The notes under the pieces: generated by a model | What the model was told of the DNA's origin: nothing | The model's database searches: none | Seen by the model: the letters and a program-made list of their open reading frames with translations, nothing else | Shown: positions 1,967 through 40,623 of the stretch, piece after piece | Layout of the letters: every line of letters begins with the position of its first letter | Position numbering within the stretch: position 1 is the stretch's first letter | NCBI GenBank assembly: GCA_015065935.1 | Contig: SVPI01000006.1 | Location: 1-64,000, forward strand | Source: Oscillospiraceae bacterium | GTDB taxonomy: Bacteria > Bacillota > Clostridia > Oscillospirales > Acutalibacteraceae | Direction of reading: 5' to 3' | DNA length: 64,000 bases | Position numbers and translations under genes: made by a program

Positions 1967-4268
1967 ATGCTCTGCTTATAATTGCCGCAATAACGGTAAT
2001 ATCATCGGTGTGGCCATCGCTACGTTTTTCTTTGGCAAGGTGGGCAATGTGCTCGGCCAGATGCTGGGCGGTATCGTTGCCCCATTTTTCCAGCTCCCTG
2101 CAAATCCACTCGTTATCCTCCCCAATAACCCCATCGGAAACCATTAAAATAATATCCCTTGAGCCTATTTTCACCTGCCCTTTATCGAAGCCGATTTCCC
2201 TTAAAATTCCTGCAGGCAGTGAGGTGCTTTGCGCCTTACCCGTGGTACCGTTTCTGCGCACAAAGGTGGGCGCCGCACCCGCCTTTAAAAGGTCCAGGGT
2301 GCCTGTAAACAAATCGAGACAGGCAACATCCACCGTGGTTAGAGATTCATCGGTTGATTTAAAGAGCATTGATGAGTTAAGAATTTTCAGAGCGCAGTCA
2401 AAGCCGAAGCCCGCTTTAATAAGGCGGCTGAGCAGCCCTGTTGCCATGGCAGAATCCACCGCCGCCCTGCCCCCACAGCCCATACCATCGGACAGCAGGA
2501 GAACCAGGCGGCCCTTGCCATCGTTAAACCAGTTGTAGGAATCGCCGCACATTGCGCCGCTTGAACTTATCTGCTCAGCGCCAACCTCGGCAAAAAGGCG
2601 GGCACGCTCCCTAAGTGCAAGATTTATTTCCCCACCACTGCGGGTAACTATGGGAACATCAAAATCCCTATCGCAAATAGCGCCTGCCGAGCGCATTATC
2701 TGCATTTTGTTTATGGCGCCGAAGCCGCTATCTGAAATGGCGGCATCAATCTGGAGGCGGCCGAATTTATCGGTTTTGCAAACACACTCCTTAACATCCA
2801 GCCCTAATTCCTTAAAGGCAAAGCCCAGGCGTGAGGCAAGGCCTGCCTCGTAATGCTCCTGACAGTTAAGTTCATTTACCATTTCGCTGAGCATATCTGA
2901 AATGCCCTCAAATTGGTCGCAAAGGGTGCCGCGCACCTCTTGAATGCGGTTTTCCGCCGCAACCTGGGCATCGTAATCCTTTAAAATTTCCCCTGCCTTT
3001 TGCCTTAAAAGTTCCACCTTAAGGCAGGCGGCCTGGGTTTTCTTTGTCTTGCCTCGAAGCTCCGTGCCGTTTTTGGTAGAAAGCAGGGTGTCGCTTAAAA
3101 ACTCTGTGGTTTGCTCACGGCTTTTTTGCCAGCAGTCCTCAAAATTAGGGCAGCCCTTGCAGGCGCGCACCTTTAGCATTTGCACAAGCCCCGAAAAGCT
3201 GGGGGTGTTAATTTTTGAAAGCTCCCGCGCCACCTGATGAACGGTTAGGGAAACATCCCGCAGTGCCGAGGCGGCAAAGGAAAGGCGCATTGTAACGGTG
3301 CTTTTAAGGGAGGGCGGCTGCACCACCGAAAAGGAGGAGGAAAACACCTTTGAAAGAGCAATGCCAACGCCTTTAGGAATGATTAAAAACAGCGCCGCGC
3401 CAAAAAAGAGCTCGCACACAGCCACCAGGCTTTTTTCGTTTATACCTTGGCTTAAAAATAAGGTGCTAAGGGTTAAAACAAAGCTGATAAGCTGAATGTG
3501 GCGACCCTTATCTCTAAAAAGCCCTGCCGCCACCGAGCCGAAAATGTAGGCAAAGGATAAAAGGGTATCTCCCCCTGTTAGCGCCGAAGCCGCCGATAAA
3601 GTGCCCCCGCAAACAACCGCTGAAAAAACGCCTCCATACCTTGCGGCGGCAAGAATAAGCCCACAGCCCAAAATTTTTCCGAGAGAAATGCCCCCAAAGC
3701 TGACCCCCGCGGCACCTGCCGCAATAAGGGTTAAAACTACTATAGCGCTTGTTAACTCCCGTTGTCCCCGCGCGGCGGTTTTTCGGCGTACAGCAACGCA
3801 GGCAAAGTGGCAAAAATATGCCCCACCTGCCGCCAAAACCGCCTCAATAACCGTGAAAAGGTAGGCATTTTCGGACGCCACGGGCGCCACAATTCCTGTG
3901 ACAAGTGTGGTAACAAAGGCCGTGAAAAGACAAAACCACACCCGCTTTCCCACCGAGGATACCGAGGACGCCATAACCCTTATGCCTGTTACGGCAAGAC
4001 AGGCGGCAACATAACGGAAAACCCCAAAGGAGAAAAGATTTGCAGGAAAAAAGTAACCCGCAACGGCGCCAAAAATACACCCGGGCAGCATAACCTGGGG
4101 GCAGCCCGAAAGCATCGCAATGCCAAAGGGTAGCATTTTCCCCGCAATGCACACGCGGGAGAGAAAAAAGGTGCAGGCGGCACCCAAAATGTGATAAAGA
4201 ATACCATAAATAAGTTCGGTTTTTGTAAGAGCGGGGAGCCGCTCACCAAATTTTGTCATTTCCTTCAT
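1965..4268 (-). CDS. spoIIE: stage II sporulation protein E, SpoIIE phosphatase
   Basis: Membrane-bound PP2C phosphatase which in Bacillus dephosphorylates SpoIIAA, activating sigma-F in the forespore, and takes part in polar septation. The 767-residue protein has about ten hydrophobic segments in roughly the first 330 residues, a cysteine-containing central region (ACKGCPNFEDCW), and a C-terminal PP2C domain with LLLSDGMGCGGRAA and a late SDGVIGEDNEW metal-binding motif. Together with SpoIIID it marks the host as a spore former. The ATG at 4268 has only a weak GGAA Shine-Dalgarno; a second ATG lies three codons in. It is transcribed alone. Confidence 0.95.
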   Translation of the reverse strand: MKEMTKFGERLPALTKTELIYGILYHILGAACTFFLSRVCIAGKMLPFGIAMLSGCPQVMLPGCIFGAVAGYFFPANLFSFGVFRYVAACLAVTGIRVMASSVSSVGKRVWFCLFTAFVTTLVTGIVAPVASENAYLFTVIEAVLAAGGAYFCHFACVAVRRKTAARGQRELTSAIVVLTLIAAGAAGVSFGGISLGKILGCGLILAAARYGGVFSAVVCGGTLSAASALTGGDTLLSFAYIFGSVAAGLFRDKGRHIQLISFVLTLSTLFLSQGINEKSLVAVCELFFGAALFLIIPKGVGIALSKVFSSSFSVVQPPSLKSTVTMRLSFAASALRDVSLTVHQVARELSKINTPSFSGLVQMLKVRACKGCPNFEDCWQKSREQTTEFLSDTLLSTKNGTELRGKTKKTQAACLKVELLRQKAGEILKDYDAQVAAENRIQEVRGTLCDQFEGISDMLSEMVNELNCQEHYEAGLASRLGFAFKELGLDVKECVCKTDKFGRLQIDAAISDSGFGAINKMQIMRSAGAICDRDFDVPIVTRSGGEINLALRERARLFAEVGAEQISSSGAMCGDSYNWFNDGKGRLVLLLSDGMGCGGRAAVDSAMATGLLSRLIKAGFGFDCALKILNSSMLFKSTDESLTTVDVACLDLFTGTLDLLKAGAAPTFVRRNGTTGKAQSTSLPAGILREIGFDKGQVKIGSRDIILMVSDGVIGEDNEWICRELEKWGNDTAQHLAEHIAHLAKEKRSDGHTDDITVIAAIISRA

Positions 4269-22194: not shown

Positions 22195-22271
22195 GCGCTT
22201 TTAGCTCAGCTGGATAGAGCGTTTGGCTACGGACCAAAAGGTCAGGGGTTCGAATCCCTTAAAGCGCGCCA
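22195..22271 (+). tRNA. tRNA-Arg(ACG), CCA encoded
   Basis: Complete cloverleaf: acceptor GCGCTTT / AAAGCGC, D-arm GCTC...GAGC, anticodon stem TTTGG / CCAAA with loop CTACGGA (anticodon ACG, reading CGN Arg codons), T-arm AGGGG-TTCGAAT-CCCTT, discriminator G and an encoded CCA. A34 is the substrate of TadA, whose gene is at 37974-38417. The last 15 bases before CCA recur inverted at 22315-22329. Confidence 0.97.
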
Positions 22272-27537: not shown

Positions 27538-27557
27538 TTTTTACTTTTCTCCTTTTT

Positions 27558-27836
27558 TTAAGTTGGCGAGAGTCGAACCAGTTACGCCTTCAAAACAAAA
27601 TTTTCGGTAATAGTTTGCCTCAAAACTTGAAATACGCCAGTATCCTCAAGTTTTGTCGGCTTCCTCTAACACAAAAATTTTAGTTTTGAAAGGTCGAAGA
27701 GTTTCTGCCAACGGATTTATTTAGTTGACAAAGCGTAATTTTGCCGCAAGGCTGACGCCTTGCAAAAAAATACGCAAAGTCAGATGATTAAAGGCGGTGA
27801 GCGAAACCGTATCGGGTTCGACTCTCGCCAACTTAA
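27558..27836 (+). ncRNA. candidate structured RNA/element B with 22-bp terminal stem
   Basis: Ends pair perfectly over 22 bases (27558-27579 with 27815-27836; starts TTAAGTTGGCGAGAG). Inside are hairpin 1 (27586-27604 with about 27675-27693), itself enclosing GCC-T-CAAAACTTGA / TCAAGTTTTG-TC-GGC (27617-27660), and hairpin 2 (27727-27781) capped by GC-TGAC-GC (27751-27758). Both hairpins recur, with other stem sequences, in the element at 39438-39748 on the minus strand. No coding frame. It fills the space between the divergent sugar operon and dnaA. Strand assigned from comparison with the other copy; promoter not identified. Not a family I recognise. Confidence 0.6.
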
Positions 27837-28006
27837 GTTCCTTTATATTTTTGCTGTTATTTTCTAAATAATACATTTTTTCTTAAAACCTTTAAATTTG
27901 CGCCCTGCGGGGTTTTAAATTTTGCCTCGTTTTTGTACTCTTTTTGTAAGAAATGTGAATTTCTATAGTTTTTATTATATATTATATATAATATTATATT
28001 TTCTTA

Positions 28007-39173: not shown

Positions 39174-39229
39174 GGGGATTATATCCCCTTAATAATTAAG
39201 ATTATAACCCCCATAATAATATGTGTCAA
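39174..39229 (+). promoter_or_regulatory. palindromes upstream of the small HTH gene
   Basis: GGGGAT-TAT-ATCCCC (39174-39188) and, further on, TAACCCCC / GGGGGTA, the second arm of which forms the ribosome binding site. Either could be an operator for the adjacent Cro/C1-type protein. Confidence 0.45.
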
Positions 39230-39241
39230 GGGGGTATTGTT

Positions 39242-39439
39242 GTGATAGTTTTTGACAAATTATGGATTACAATGAAAAACAAAGGCTTTTCTACCTACAA
39301 ATTGCGGGAAGAATGTGGAATTGACAGCAAAACAATAAGGCGACTGAAGGCAAACGAAAATATTGAAACAAAAACCATTGATAAGTTGTGTTTGGCATTA
39401 AATTGCCGCGTTGAAGATATAATAGAATATAAAAAATAA
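39242..39439 (+). CDS. small Cro/C1-type HTH protein
   Basis: 65 residues, almost only an XRE-type helix-turn-helix: KGFSTYKLREECGIDSKTIRRLKANENIETKTIDKLCLALNCRVEDIIEY. This class of stand-alone regulators is common in Clostridia, often in mobile or stress loci. GTG start at 39242 with AAGGGGG 8 bases upstream; upstream palindromes may allow autoregulation. Its stop codon touches the structured element at 39438-39748. Confidence 0.85.
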   Translation: MIVFDKLWITMKNKGFSTYKLREECGIDSKTIRRLKANENIETKTIDKLCLALNCRVEDIIEYKK

Positions 39440-39748
39440 AAGCACAGGATACGGAACGTACCCTTAAGGAAAAAACGCCTAAAAAAGCAACTTTTTGCGG
39501 TCTAATGTGTTAAAAAGACACGGTATGCGTCAGCATTACCGTGTCTTTTCGCCTTTTATACCACTAAAAATTTATCTTTTTTAGGTGCAAGCAGTTTTGT
39601 AACATAAAAATTTGTTCTATTATCGAAGCCGACAAACCGCAGGAATACTTTGTGTCTTTCAAGGTTTGAGGCAAAGAGAATAGGCAAATTTTTGTTCCAA
39701 AACCGATTTGTCCTTAAAGGTACGTTCCGTTTGTTTTCCTGTGCTTTT
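39438..39748 (-). ncRNA. candidate structured RNA/element C, relative of element B
   Basis: Terminal stem in two blocks: AAAAGCACAGGA (39438-39449) with 39737-39748, and GGAACGTACC... (39453-39470) with 39711-39728, one mismatch. Read on the minus strand: hairpin 1 (39685-39703 with 39594-39614) encloses GCC-T-CAAACC / GGTTTG-TC-GGC (39628-39672); hairpin 2 AAAAGACACGGTA / TACCGTGTCTTTT (39513-39549) is capped by GC-TGAC-GC. The core between TTTGCCTCAAA and GTCGGCTTC aligns with element B (27611-27662). Terminal stems are unrelated in sequence. No coding frame; promoter not identified. Confidence 0.6.
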
Positions 39749-39780
39749 TAATTTGCATAAAAACAATCTTCTGTCTTTTT

Positions 39781-39809
39781 CGGGATGTCGTAAACGCCAT
39801 CCCCTACAA
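39781..39809 (-). repeat. TTGTAGG hairpin repeat, copy 2
   Basis: On the minus strand TTGTAGG then GGATGGCG-TTTA-CGACATCC: a hairpin with one G-A mismatch. Nearly the same as the copy at 47062. Confidence 0.65.
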
Positions 39810-39843
39810 TATCACACAATATATTTTTGCGGTTATGGGTAGA

Positions 39844-40623
39844 TTATTTTCCATTTTTTATAATCTCATAATTCCTTAAAATTACCTTTCCGCCGCGCCA
39901 GGTGTAGGCTCTGTCACAAAAATCCTCGGTGGGGGAGAAGCAGGAGCGATAGGAACTTATAAATTCGGCAATATCGGTTAGGTCTTTGCCATTATTTTCA
40001 GGGCAGACCTCACTGCAAATATCACAGCCCCAAACACAGCCGCTTTTTTTAATCACAGCCTGCTGTTCGGCCGAAAGCTCGCCCTTTTGCTGGGTGATTT
40101 TTGAAAGGCAGTCTTCATTTTTAAGCCCCACAGGGCAGGCCGCCTTGCATTTCCCACAACCCAAGCAGTGGGTGGGGGAGTGGTCGGCAATTTTAAGGTC
40201 TAGGTCGGTTACAATTTCGCCTAAAAAGACAAAGCTGCCGAACCTATCATCAATAAAAAGACCGTTTTGCCCCACTCTTCCGAGCCCTGTTTTTGAAAGG
40301 GCTAAAACCTCATTTATAGGGGAATTATCAATAAAAGGCTCAAAGGCGTTTTCCGGAAAAAGCGCCTTTAATTTTTCTGCCGCGGTATTAAGCATTTCGC
40401 CGCAAACAAGGTGATAATCTTTAGTGGCGGCATAGCGGCTTATATTTTTTGGCGGCGCGCTTTCCACCCTATAGGGAAAAACAGCGCAAATAACCGTTTT
40501 TGAATTTTGGGGCAGGCGGGCAGAATTTCGGCAGGGGAGAAGGGCATTTTTTACCCCTTCGTAAGTGCAAAAGCCCACTCTGTTTATGCCGCAGGAATTT
40601 AAAATTTCTATAATTCTTTCCAT
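39844..40623 (-). CDS. QueG-like epoxyqueuosine reductase, short form
   Basis: 259 residues: DUF1730-type N-terminal region (NSCGINRVGFC, VFPYRVE, DNSPINEV, GLGRVGQNGLFID) followed by two [4Fe-4S] motifs, CLGCGKCKAACP and CVWGCDICSEVCP. QueG reduces epoxyqueuosine to queuosine in tRNA using cobalamin and Fe-S clusters. The C-terminal HEAT-like tRNA-binding domain of the roughly 380-residue enzymes is missing, so the assignment to QueG proper is uncertain. Starts 3 bases after the ABC gene ends. Confidence 0.8.
   Translation of the reverse strand: MERIIEILNSCGINRVGFCTYEGVKNALLPCRNSARLPQNSKTVICAVFPYRVESAPPKNISRYAATKDYHLVCGEMLNTAAEKLKALFPENAFEPFIDNSPINEVLALSKTGLGRVGQNGLFIDDRFGSFVFLGEIVTDLDLKIADHSPTHCLGCGKCKAACPVGLKNEDCLSKITQQKGELSAEQQAVIKKSGCVWGCDICSEVCPENNGKDLTDIAEFISSYRSCFSPTEDFCDRAYTWRGGKVILRNYEIIKNGK

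Follow-up and report, generated by a model that had tools for sequence, protein, structure and literature searches.

Insertion sequences of the IS30, IS1182 and IS1397 types enter palindromes or terminators and carry a transposase, and palindromes are prone to correction between their arms. Among bacterial MITEs with stable folds, Coxiella QMITE2 and the BOX, RUP and SPRITE elements are described in PMC10969869 as short, non-coding and AT-rich with inverted ends, as intergenic, as able to nest and as giving transcripts that are predicted to fold. REP and REPIN sequences, composed of inverted hairpin units, are associated with RAYT (REP-associated tyrosine transposase) genes, and PMC3733652 also reports RAYT-like genes that have long inverted repeats in place of REPs on their flanks.

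Here, a structured element termed copy C was analyzed in a window of 64,000 nucleotides, which comprises positions 1 to 64,000 of contig SVPI01000006.1 from an Oscillospiraceae bacterium. With a probability of roughly 0.85, copy C is a non-autonomous (MITE-like) transposable element, one member of an element family that is widespread in a single GTDB family of Clostridia.

Copy C and its insertion site

Copy C is located on the minus strand at 39452-39729 (278 nt). It was aligned with 15 other copies and with copy L149 of genome G282, the latter having nearly identical ends. Both ends are inverted repeats, and in the MFE fold the left one (39710-39729, the 5′ end on the minus strand) pairs with the right one (39452-39471, minus strand) to form helix 1, in which 20 of 26 pairs have changed on both sides. 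No open frame of at least 45 aa lies inside the element. The first-pass annotation had proposed a structured element, and C indeed folds far better than shuffled sequence, with -125.7 kcal/mol compared to -63.5 ± 5.2 kcal/mol for the shuffles (RNA z -12.0, DNA z -10.6).

Outside the element, the two arms of a further stem were found at 39438-39449 (AAAAGCACAGGA) and 39737-39748 (TCCTGTGCTTTT). Joined together, the flanks of C form a 12-bp hairpin with an A tract and a T tract and about -17 kcal/mol on either strand. A small Cro/C1-type HTH gene on the plus strand (39221-39439; Pfam HTH_26, E 9.7e-16 for the residues from 39242) stops at this stem, just as had been noted, and a QueG-like gene (39844-40623, minus strand; NCBIfam TIGR00276 at E 9e-37, which is below the cut-off, and Pfam QueG_DUF1730 above its cut-off) is convergent to it. 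Copy C is thus located inside a bidirectional host terminator between the HTH gene and the QueG-like gene. The outer 12-bp stem belongs to this terminator and the inner stem to the element, which explains why the terminal stems of C and of copy B had appeared unrelated. The terminal stem of 12 bp plus 18 bp reported before does exist, but it is two things, the stem of the host terminator and the inverted repeat of the element.

The dinucleotides flanking C differ (AA and TA), so that no clean duplication is present at C itself. In the sister species G049, a short hairpin composed of the identical 12-bp stem and a single inner arm occupies this site, and it is read as the product of a deletion between GTA repeats.

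Between C and the QueG-like gene lies the decayed fragment of a RAYT gene (39749-39843, minus strand). It scores below the profile thresholds itself, and the fragment of the sister species (L053, about 1350-1490) and the RAYT of genome G010 share 72% identity across 39 aa. The fragment beside C is an N-terminal piece that occurs in both species of the genus and is longer in G049. At 39201-39229 on the minus strand, adjoining the start of the HTH gene, a TTGACA-17-TATAAT sequence with 12 of 12 matching positions was observed upstream of a 55-aa frame.

Copy B and its kinship with copy C

Copy B belongs to another clade of the same family and adjoins dnaA. It is located on the plus strand between TA dinucleotides at about 27561-27833 (27557-27838 at its widest). 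Its arm 1 (27586-27694, plus strand) scores 92.0 bits with the arm-1 model R1 and its arm 2 (27697-27809, plus strand) 87.1 bits with the arm-2 model R2, whereas arm 1 of C, the first hairpin (39594-39704, minus strand), reaches 99.3 bits with R1; all three values come from members of the training sets. R2 obtained almost no base pairs and was used on the window only. Within the window, the pattern GCCTCAAAACTTGA with at most one mismatch finds B and C only, and the same holds for R1, R2 and BLAST, besides short matches or matches with E > 0.1.

The pairing GCC-U-CAAACC / GGUUUG-UC-GGC of hairpin 1, including its bulges, and the cap GC-TGAC-GC of hairpin 2 are present in C as annotated. A 10-bp stem given for hairpin 1 of B was found in some B copies; it is only a variant, as other B copies read CCTGCG. 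The proposed kinship of B and C is supported by alignment, with a global score of 65.5 (shuffle maximum 53.5) and a local score of 53 (shuffle maximum 27). Since none of 300 shuffles scored as high, the objection that the two copies align no better than shuffled sequence does not hold.

Copies, subtypes and clades

Instead of the two copies assumed at first, far more were identified by pattern and DNA searches of the window genome (1.48 Mb, 87.5% complete, 23 contigs) and of the sister species G049. The window genome contains 13 full-length copies, namely four B, two D, two E, two F, one A, one A2 and C, together with several remnants and an E copy whose parts lie at two contig ends. The members of the family are non-coding, about 280 nt long (277-287 nt as cut for the alignment) and have terminal inverted repeats and a Y fold consisting of a terminal stem and two hairpin arms of about 110 nt each. 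In the genus, seven subtypes form three clades (B+D; C+E; A+A2+F) with 38-48% identity between the clades and 63-81% within them. In global alignments of B with F, C with F, B with A, C with D and E with A2, none of 300 shuffles scored as high. The comparison of B with E by sequence alone is non-significant (68 of 300 shuffles as high), so that E joins the family through C.

The chimera L029 (1309-1588) is composed of the 5′ two thirds of an F-type copy and a D-type 3′ end, and it occupies the site at which the window genome has the D copy L027. This shows that copies exchange sequence. Deletion remnants in the form of short hairpins were found for B (L035, L038), F (L112) and another type (L323, about 4036-4063). 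At L035, L038, L053, L112 and L323 the element has collapsed to the outer stem and one inner arm; the two cases that were closely inspected show repeats of 2-3 bases at the deletion points.

Conservation of the Y fold

Each subtype was folded separately. Of 360 base pairs, 231 are found again in all three clades at a shift of no more than one column, and 34 are in exact register; subtype D prefers an alternative fold in which the arms are paired with each other. The sequence-only alignment A4, with 15 rows and a consensus of 121 pairs, has these pairs formed in 77.8% of the cells, compared to 35-47% for slid versions. Changes on both sides were found in 81 of the 121 pairs, and the covariation score is 0.411 (at most 0.144 for slid versions). 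An alignment of arm 1 comprises 46 rows, of which 45 come from other genomes and were not used to derive the structure. With the reservation that the inclusion of these 45 rows depended on an R1 match and therefore leans towards the fold, 75.8% of the cells are paired, compared to 34-55% for slid versions, and 33 of 46 pairs have changed on both sides. The compensatory stems proposed earlier are borne out by these changes, which lie far above both controls. The alignments show that base pairs, more than letters, are conserved in the predicted Y fold. The arms have lengths of 109-111 and 113-115 nt in 16 copies, and as some consensus columns pair in few rows, they are irregular rods and not perfect helices. 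A chance palindrome was rejected on the basis of the fold relative to shuffles, the alignment of B with C and the compensatory pairs.

The stems might also have arisen as fold-back palindromes of a conventional MITE, which is moved by a DDE transposase with a 2-bp duplication and in which template switching, not selection on the fold, keeps the stems complementary. The terminal inverted repeats, the 2-bp duplications described below and the general tendency of palindromes to be corrected between their arms fit this explanation. However, template switching does not explain the constant total length, arm length and pairing register at 38-48% identity, and transposases of the three DDE families examined are scarce or missing (see below), which leaves this explanation possible, though doubtful.

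The two arms as an inverted unit

Arm 2 of C (39476-39590, minus strand) is an inverted relative of arm 1, as R1 scores 57.5 bits on the plus strand but 28.8 bits on the arm's own strand. In 41 of 88 loci, the same model detects arm 2 at a distance of about 10 nt or less, on the strand opposite to arm 1. Judged by these model matches, the element resembles an ancient inverted dimer and has, like a REPIN, two inverted hairpin units. The corresponding test by sequence alone is weak, as 20 of 102 elements exceed a z of 3, compared to 2 of 60 in direct orientation. A shortened form, about 233 nt long and devoid of the greater part of arm 2, recurs in the genomes G118 (L144, L201, L204-L207) and G211 (L220). 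The full Y is therefore unnecessary for spread, and arm 2 seems dispensable.

Ends and target-site duplications

Inverted repeats in which 12 or more of the 16 outermost bases pair were found for 117 of 143 arm-1 matches, while the remaining 26 have no ends under this rule. The paired ends give element lengths of 262-284 nt, most of them 275-280 nt. The elements end in TA/GGG, TA/AGC, TA/GCC or TT/CGG and show 2-bp duplications of TA for the B, D, A and F types and of TT or AA for the E/C clade. Identical flanking dinucleotides are present in 11 of 15 E/C rows (9 TT, 2 AA), C being an exception, and TA is located near both ends in 99 of the 108 copies outside this clade.

Two pairs of filled and empty sites were identified. 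In the first one, an A-type copy in G000 corresponds to an empty site in G049, and one TTAA becomes two. In the second one, L244 reads GATTA-element-TACAG and L301 reads GATTACAA, with TA being doubled and the flanks 75.6% identical. Together with the dispersed copies, these pairs confirm the earlier assumption that the element has moved or been duplicated. Nesting was observed in L148, in which one element has entered the second arm of another; in the alignment with 19 uninterrupted relatives, the exact duplication is ambiguous. ORFs of 120 aa were called around 36 of 96 sites and at 1300 of 1920 control points, by a caller which also takes spurious frames.

Insertion of the E/C clade into terminator loops

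A host hairpin stem of at least 8 bp surrounds 9 of 15 E/C sites (L137, L192, L149, L215, L218, L058/L052, L047, L050 and C) but none of 96 sites of other clades (Fisher 1e-9), and 0.84% of random flank pairs have such a stem. Loop insertions amount to 8 of 14 when L047 and L050, which are orthologous, are counted as one site, and 6 of the 15 sites have no host hairpin of 8 bp. These counts show that E/C elements preferentially enter loops of hairpins bearing A and T tracts, i.e., of predicted intrinsic terminators.

In genome G291, a gene for a DDE_Tnp_1 transposase was observed between two copies of one terminator-like palindrome (L349, 1331-2909, and L353, 860-2438), with the ends CAGCCTGTCG. 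This stretch is possibly another terminator-seeking element with different ends.

Conservation of orthologous copies

Two intact orthologous pairs, one of B and one of E, were compared between the two species. The B orthologues are identical at 281 of 282 positions, compared to 336 of 365 in the flanks (Fisher 6e-7), and the E orthologues at 278 of 279, compared to 1032 of 1200 (Fisher 3e-15). For a truncated F remnant, the values are 79 of 81 and 1135 of 1201 (p 0.31). In these aligned sequences, the constancy could be due to selection acting on the copy, to conversion among copies or to exchange between species.

The far higher conservation of the intact B and E copies relative to their flanks, which the truncated F remnant lacks, and the compensatory changes would both be expected of a functional multicopy non-coding RNA or RNA-level regulator, in which the Y is kept for the host, e.g., for shielding or processing 3′ ends. 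Yet the copies lie at different places beside unrelated genes, the filled sites have empty counterparts in two cases, insertions are nested or abutting and deletion remnants are many. Moreover, the intact orthologous pairs are only two, and exchange between copies, as in the chimera L029, could alone keep copies alike. Such a function for the host is considered unlikely.

Distribution and previous records

The taxon searched with R1 was one GTDB family. At E ≤ 0.01, with E-values that are rough, matches were found in 127 of 300 sampled genomes and 69 of 135 genera, and in 88 of 230 genomes of good quality. At most 12 candidates were scored per genome, so that copy numbers are lower bounds. In three element-rich genomes (G282, G118 and G197), 793 kb contain 19 copies or pieces. 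A strict pattern, which proved too narrow and misleading, gave three chance-level matches outside the genus in 200 genomes of the family.

An A/F-type pattern was found in 84 stretches of named genome contigs. Among the matches listed (80 of 84), the titles name Clostridia, Oscillospiraceae, Ruminococcaceae and Eubacterium MAGs and a few cases of "uncultured bacterium", and the sources are mostly guts of ruminants and other herbivores. A phage or plasmid origin was rejected, since B is unmatched in plasmids, C in phages and A in both. In viral contigs, one pattern gave four stretches, mostly of coding DNA and read as chance, and another gave none.

For B, C and five other loci, no match at the gathering score was obtained in Rfam (release 15); all matches were below the threshold, and a known RNA family was rejected. 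The sequence GGTTCGACTC resembles a T-arm, but the only tRNA identified by ARAGORN and Rfam is the tRNA-Arg at 22195, and a tRNA-derived element was rejected as well. In the literature searched, with subscription papers and preprints mostly outside its scope, the accessible text of papers including PMC8040213, PMC10969869 and PMC3733652 contains no description of the family. It is apparently a large, undescribed family of herbivore-gut Clostridia, common in the sampled genomes and yet absent from Rfam.

Search for the mobilizing enzyme

Twenty-four element-rich genomes, a small sample picked by us from the R1 survey and not phylogenetically independent, were compared with 15 genomes without an R1 match; DDE_3 was run on the 24 only. 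IS630 DDE_3 was found in none of the 24 genomes, IS30 in 2 of 24 element-rich genomes compared to 5 of the 15, and DDE_Tnp_1 in 2 of 24 compared to 3 of 15, which points neither to an IS630/mariner nor to an IS30 derivative. Y1_Tnp matches occur in 18 of the 24 and 5 of the 15 genomes. Weak matches of the RAYT type, defined by a cut of the Y1_Tnp scores at 60 bits of our own choice, occur in 17 of 24 compared to 1 of 15 (Fisher 1.6e-4), the 17 including G138, whose protein differs in length and type. For two of the RAYT proteins, matches to NCBIfam REP_Tyr_transpos were obtained below its cut-off (E 1.7e-19 and E 6.8e-19).

The RAYT-like genes co-occur with the elements but are not adjacent to them, as 1 of 30 Y1_Tnp loci has an R1 match, about 1 kb apart. 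A flanking inverted repeat above shuffles is absent in 14 of 15 RAYT genes tested, and the genes carry GTAG repeats of their own. In L169-L187, a GTAG-type repeat sequence was observed in frame inside the RAYT coding region (IVGGGALDAP-like stretches). GTAG-tagged short REP hairpins beside a RAYT gene, as in REPINs, were not found for the family.

A giant relative of REPINs, whose two inverted hairpin units are moved by a RAYT as single-stranded DNA, would account for the related inverted arms seen at the 41 loci and in C, for the co-occurrence with weak RAYT-type matches and for the RAYT fragment adjoining C, and the RAYT-like genes with long flanking inverted repeats mentioned above would provide a precedent. 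This origin is nevertheless improbable, since 7 of the 24 element-rich genomes, including G197 (98% complete), have no RAYT-type match, the Y1_Tnp loci lie apart from the elements in all but the one case, the genes have their own GTAG repeats and mostly lack flanking inverted repeats, and the co-occurrence itself comes from the small, hand-picked sample.

No gene-bearing version with the ends of the family was found in the examined loci or in the 793 kb of G282, G118 and G197. As no autonomous element with shared ends was found there, MITE-like is the safe term for C and its relatives. For this MITE-like family, we tentatively propose a mobilizer that reads the fold and not the sequence. An enzyme acting in trans, perhaps of the RAYT type, would recognize the folded ends, perhaps with the Y bound as single-stranded DNA, and this would leave ends and arms free to drift while they stay complementary. 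The enzyme of the E/C clade would take a palindromic or extruded hairpin as target, and with such a target the terminator may remain functional around the insert. If this is true, a fold-reading element colonizes the ends of genes without breaking them.

Comparison with known systems

The family is a clear example of compensatory evolution within mobile DNA and includes a clade that has a terminator loop as target. This hairpin or palindrome target is shared with the IS30, IS1182 and IS1397 types; those carry a transposase, and IS30 and DDE_Tnp_1 are rare in the element-rich genomes.

The traits of QMITE2, BOX, RUP and SPRITE listed at the beginning all apply to the family described here. In contrast to these elements, as presented in PMC10969869, it shows a compensatory fold across clades of 38-48% identity, a two-arm Y and, in one clade, insertion into terminator loops; no parent IS was found, and its target-site repeats have 2 bp, compared to 7-9 bp for QMITE2. 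With REP/REPIN and RAYT systems and with TIRYT/TIRtron (PMC3733652, PMC3116915), it has two inverted hairpin units and the co-occurrence with Y1 RAYT-type genes in common. The REP/REPIN units comprise 20-40 nt, whereas those of the present family comprise about 110 nt and bear no GTAG tag. Unlike REPINs and TIRtrons, the family combines long terminal inverted repeats and 2-bp duplications with RAYT genes that are not flanked by the elements.
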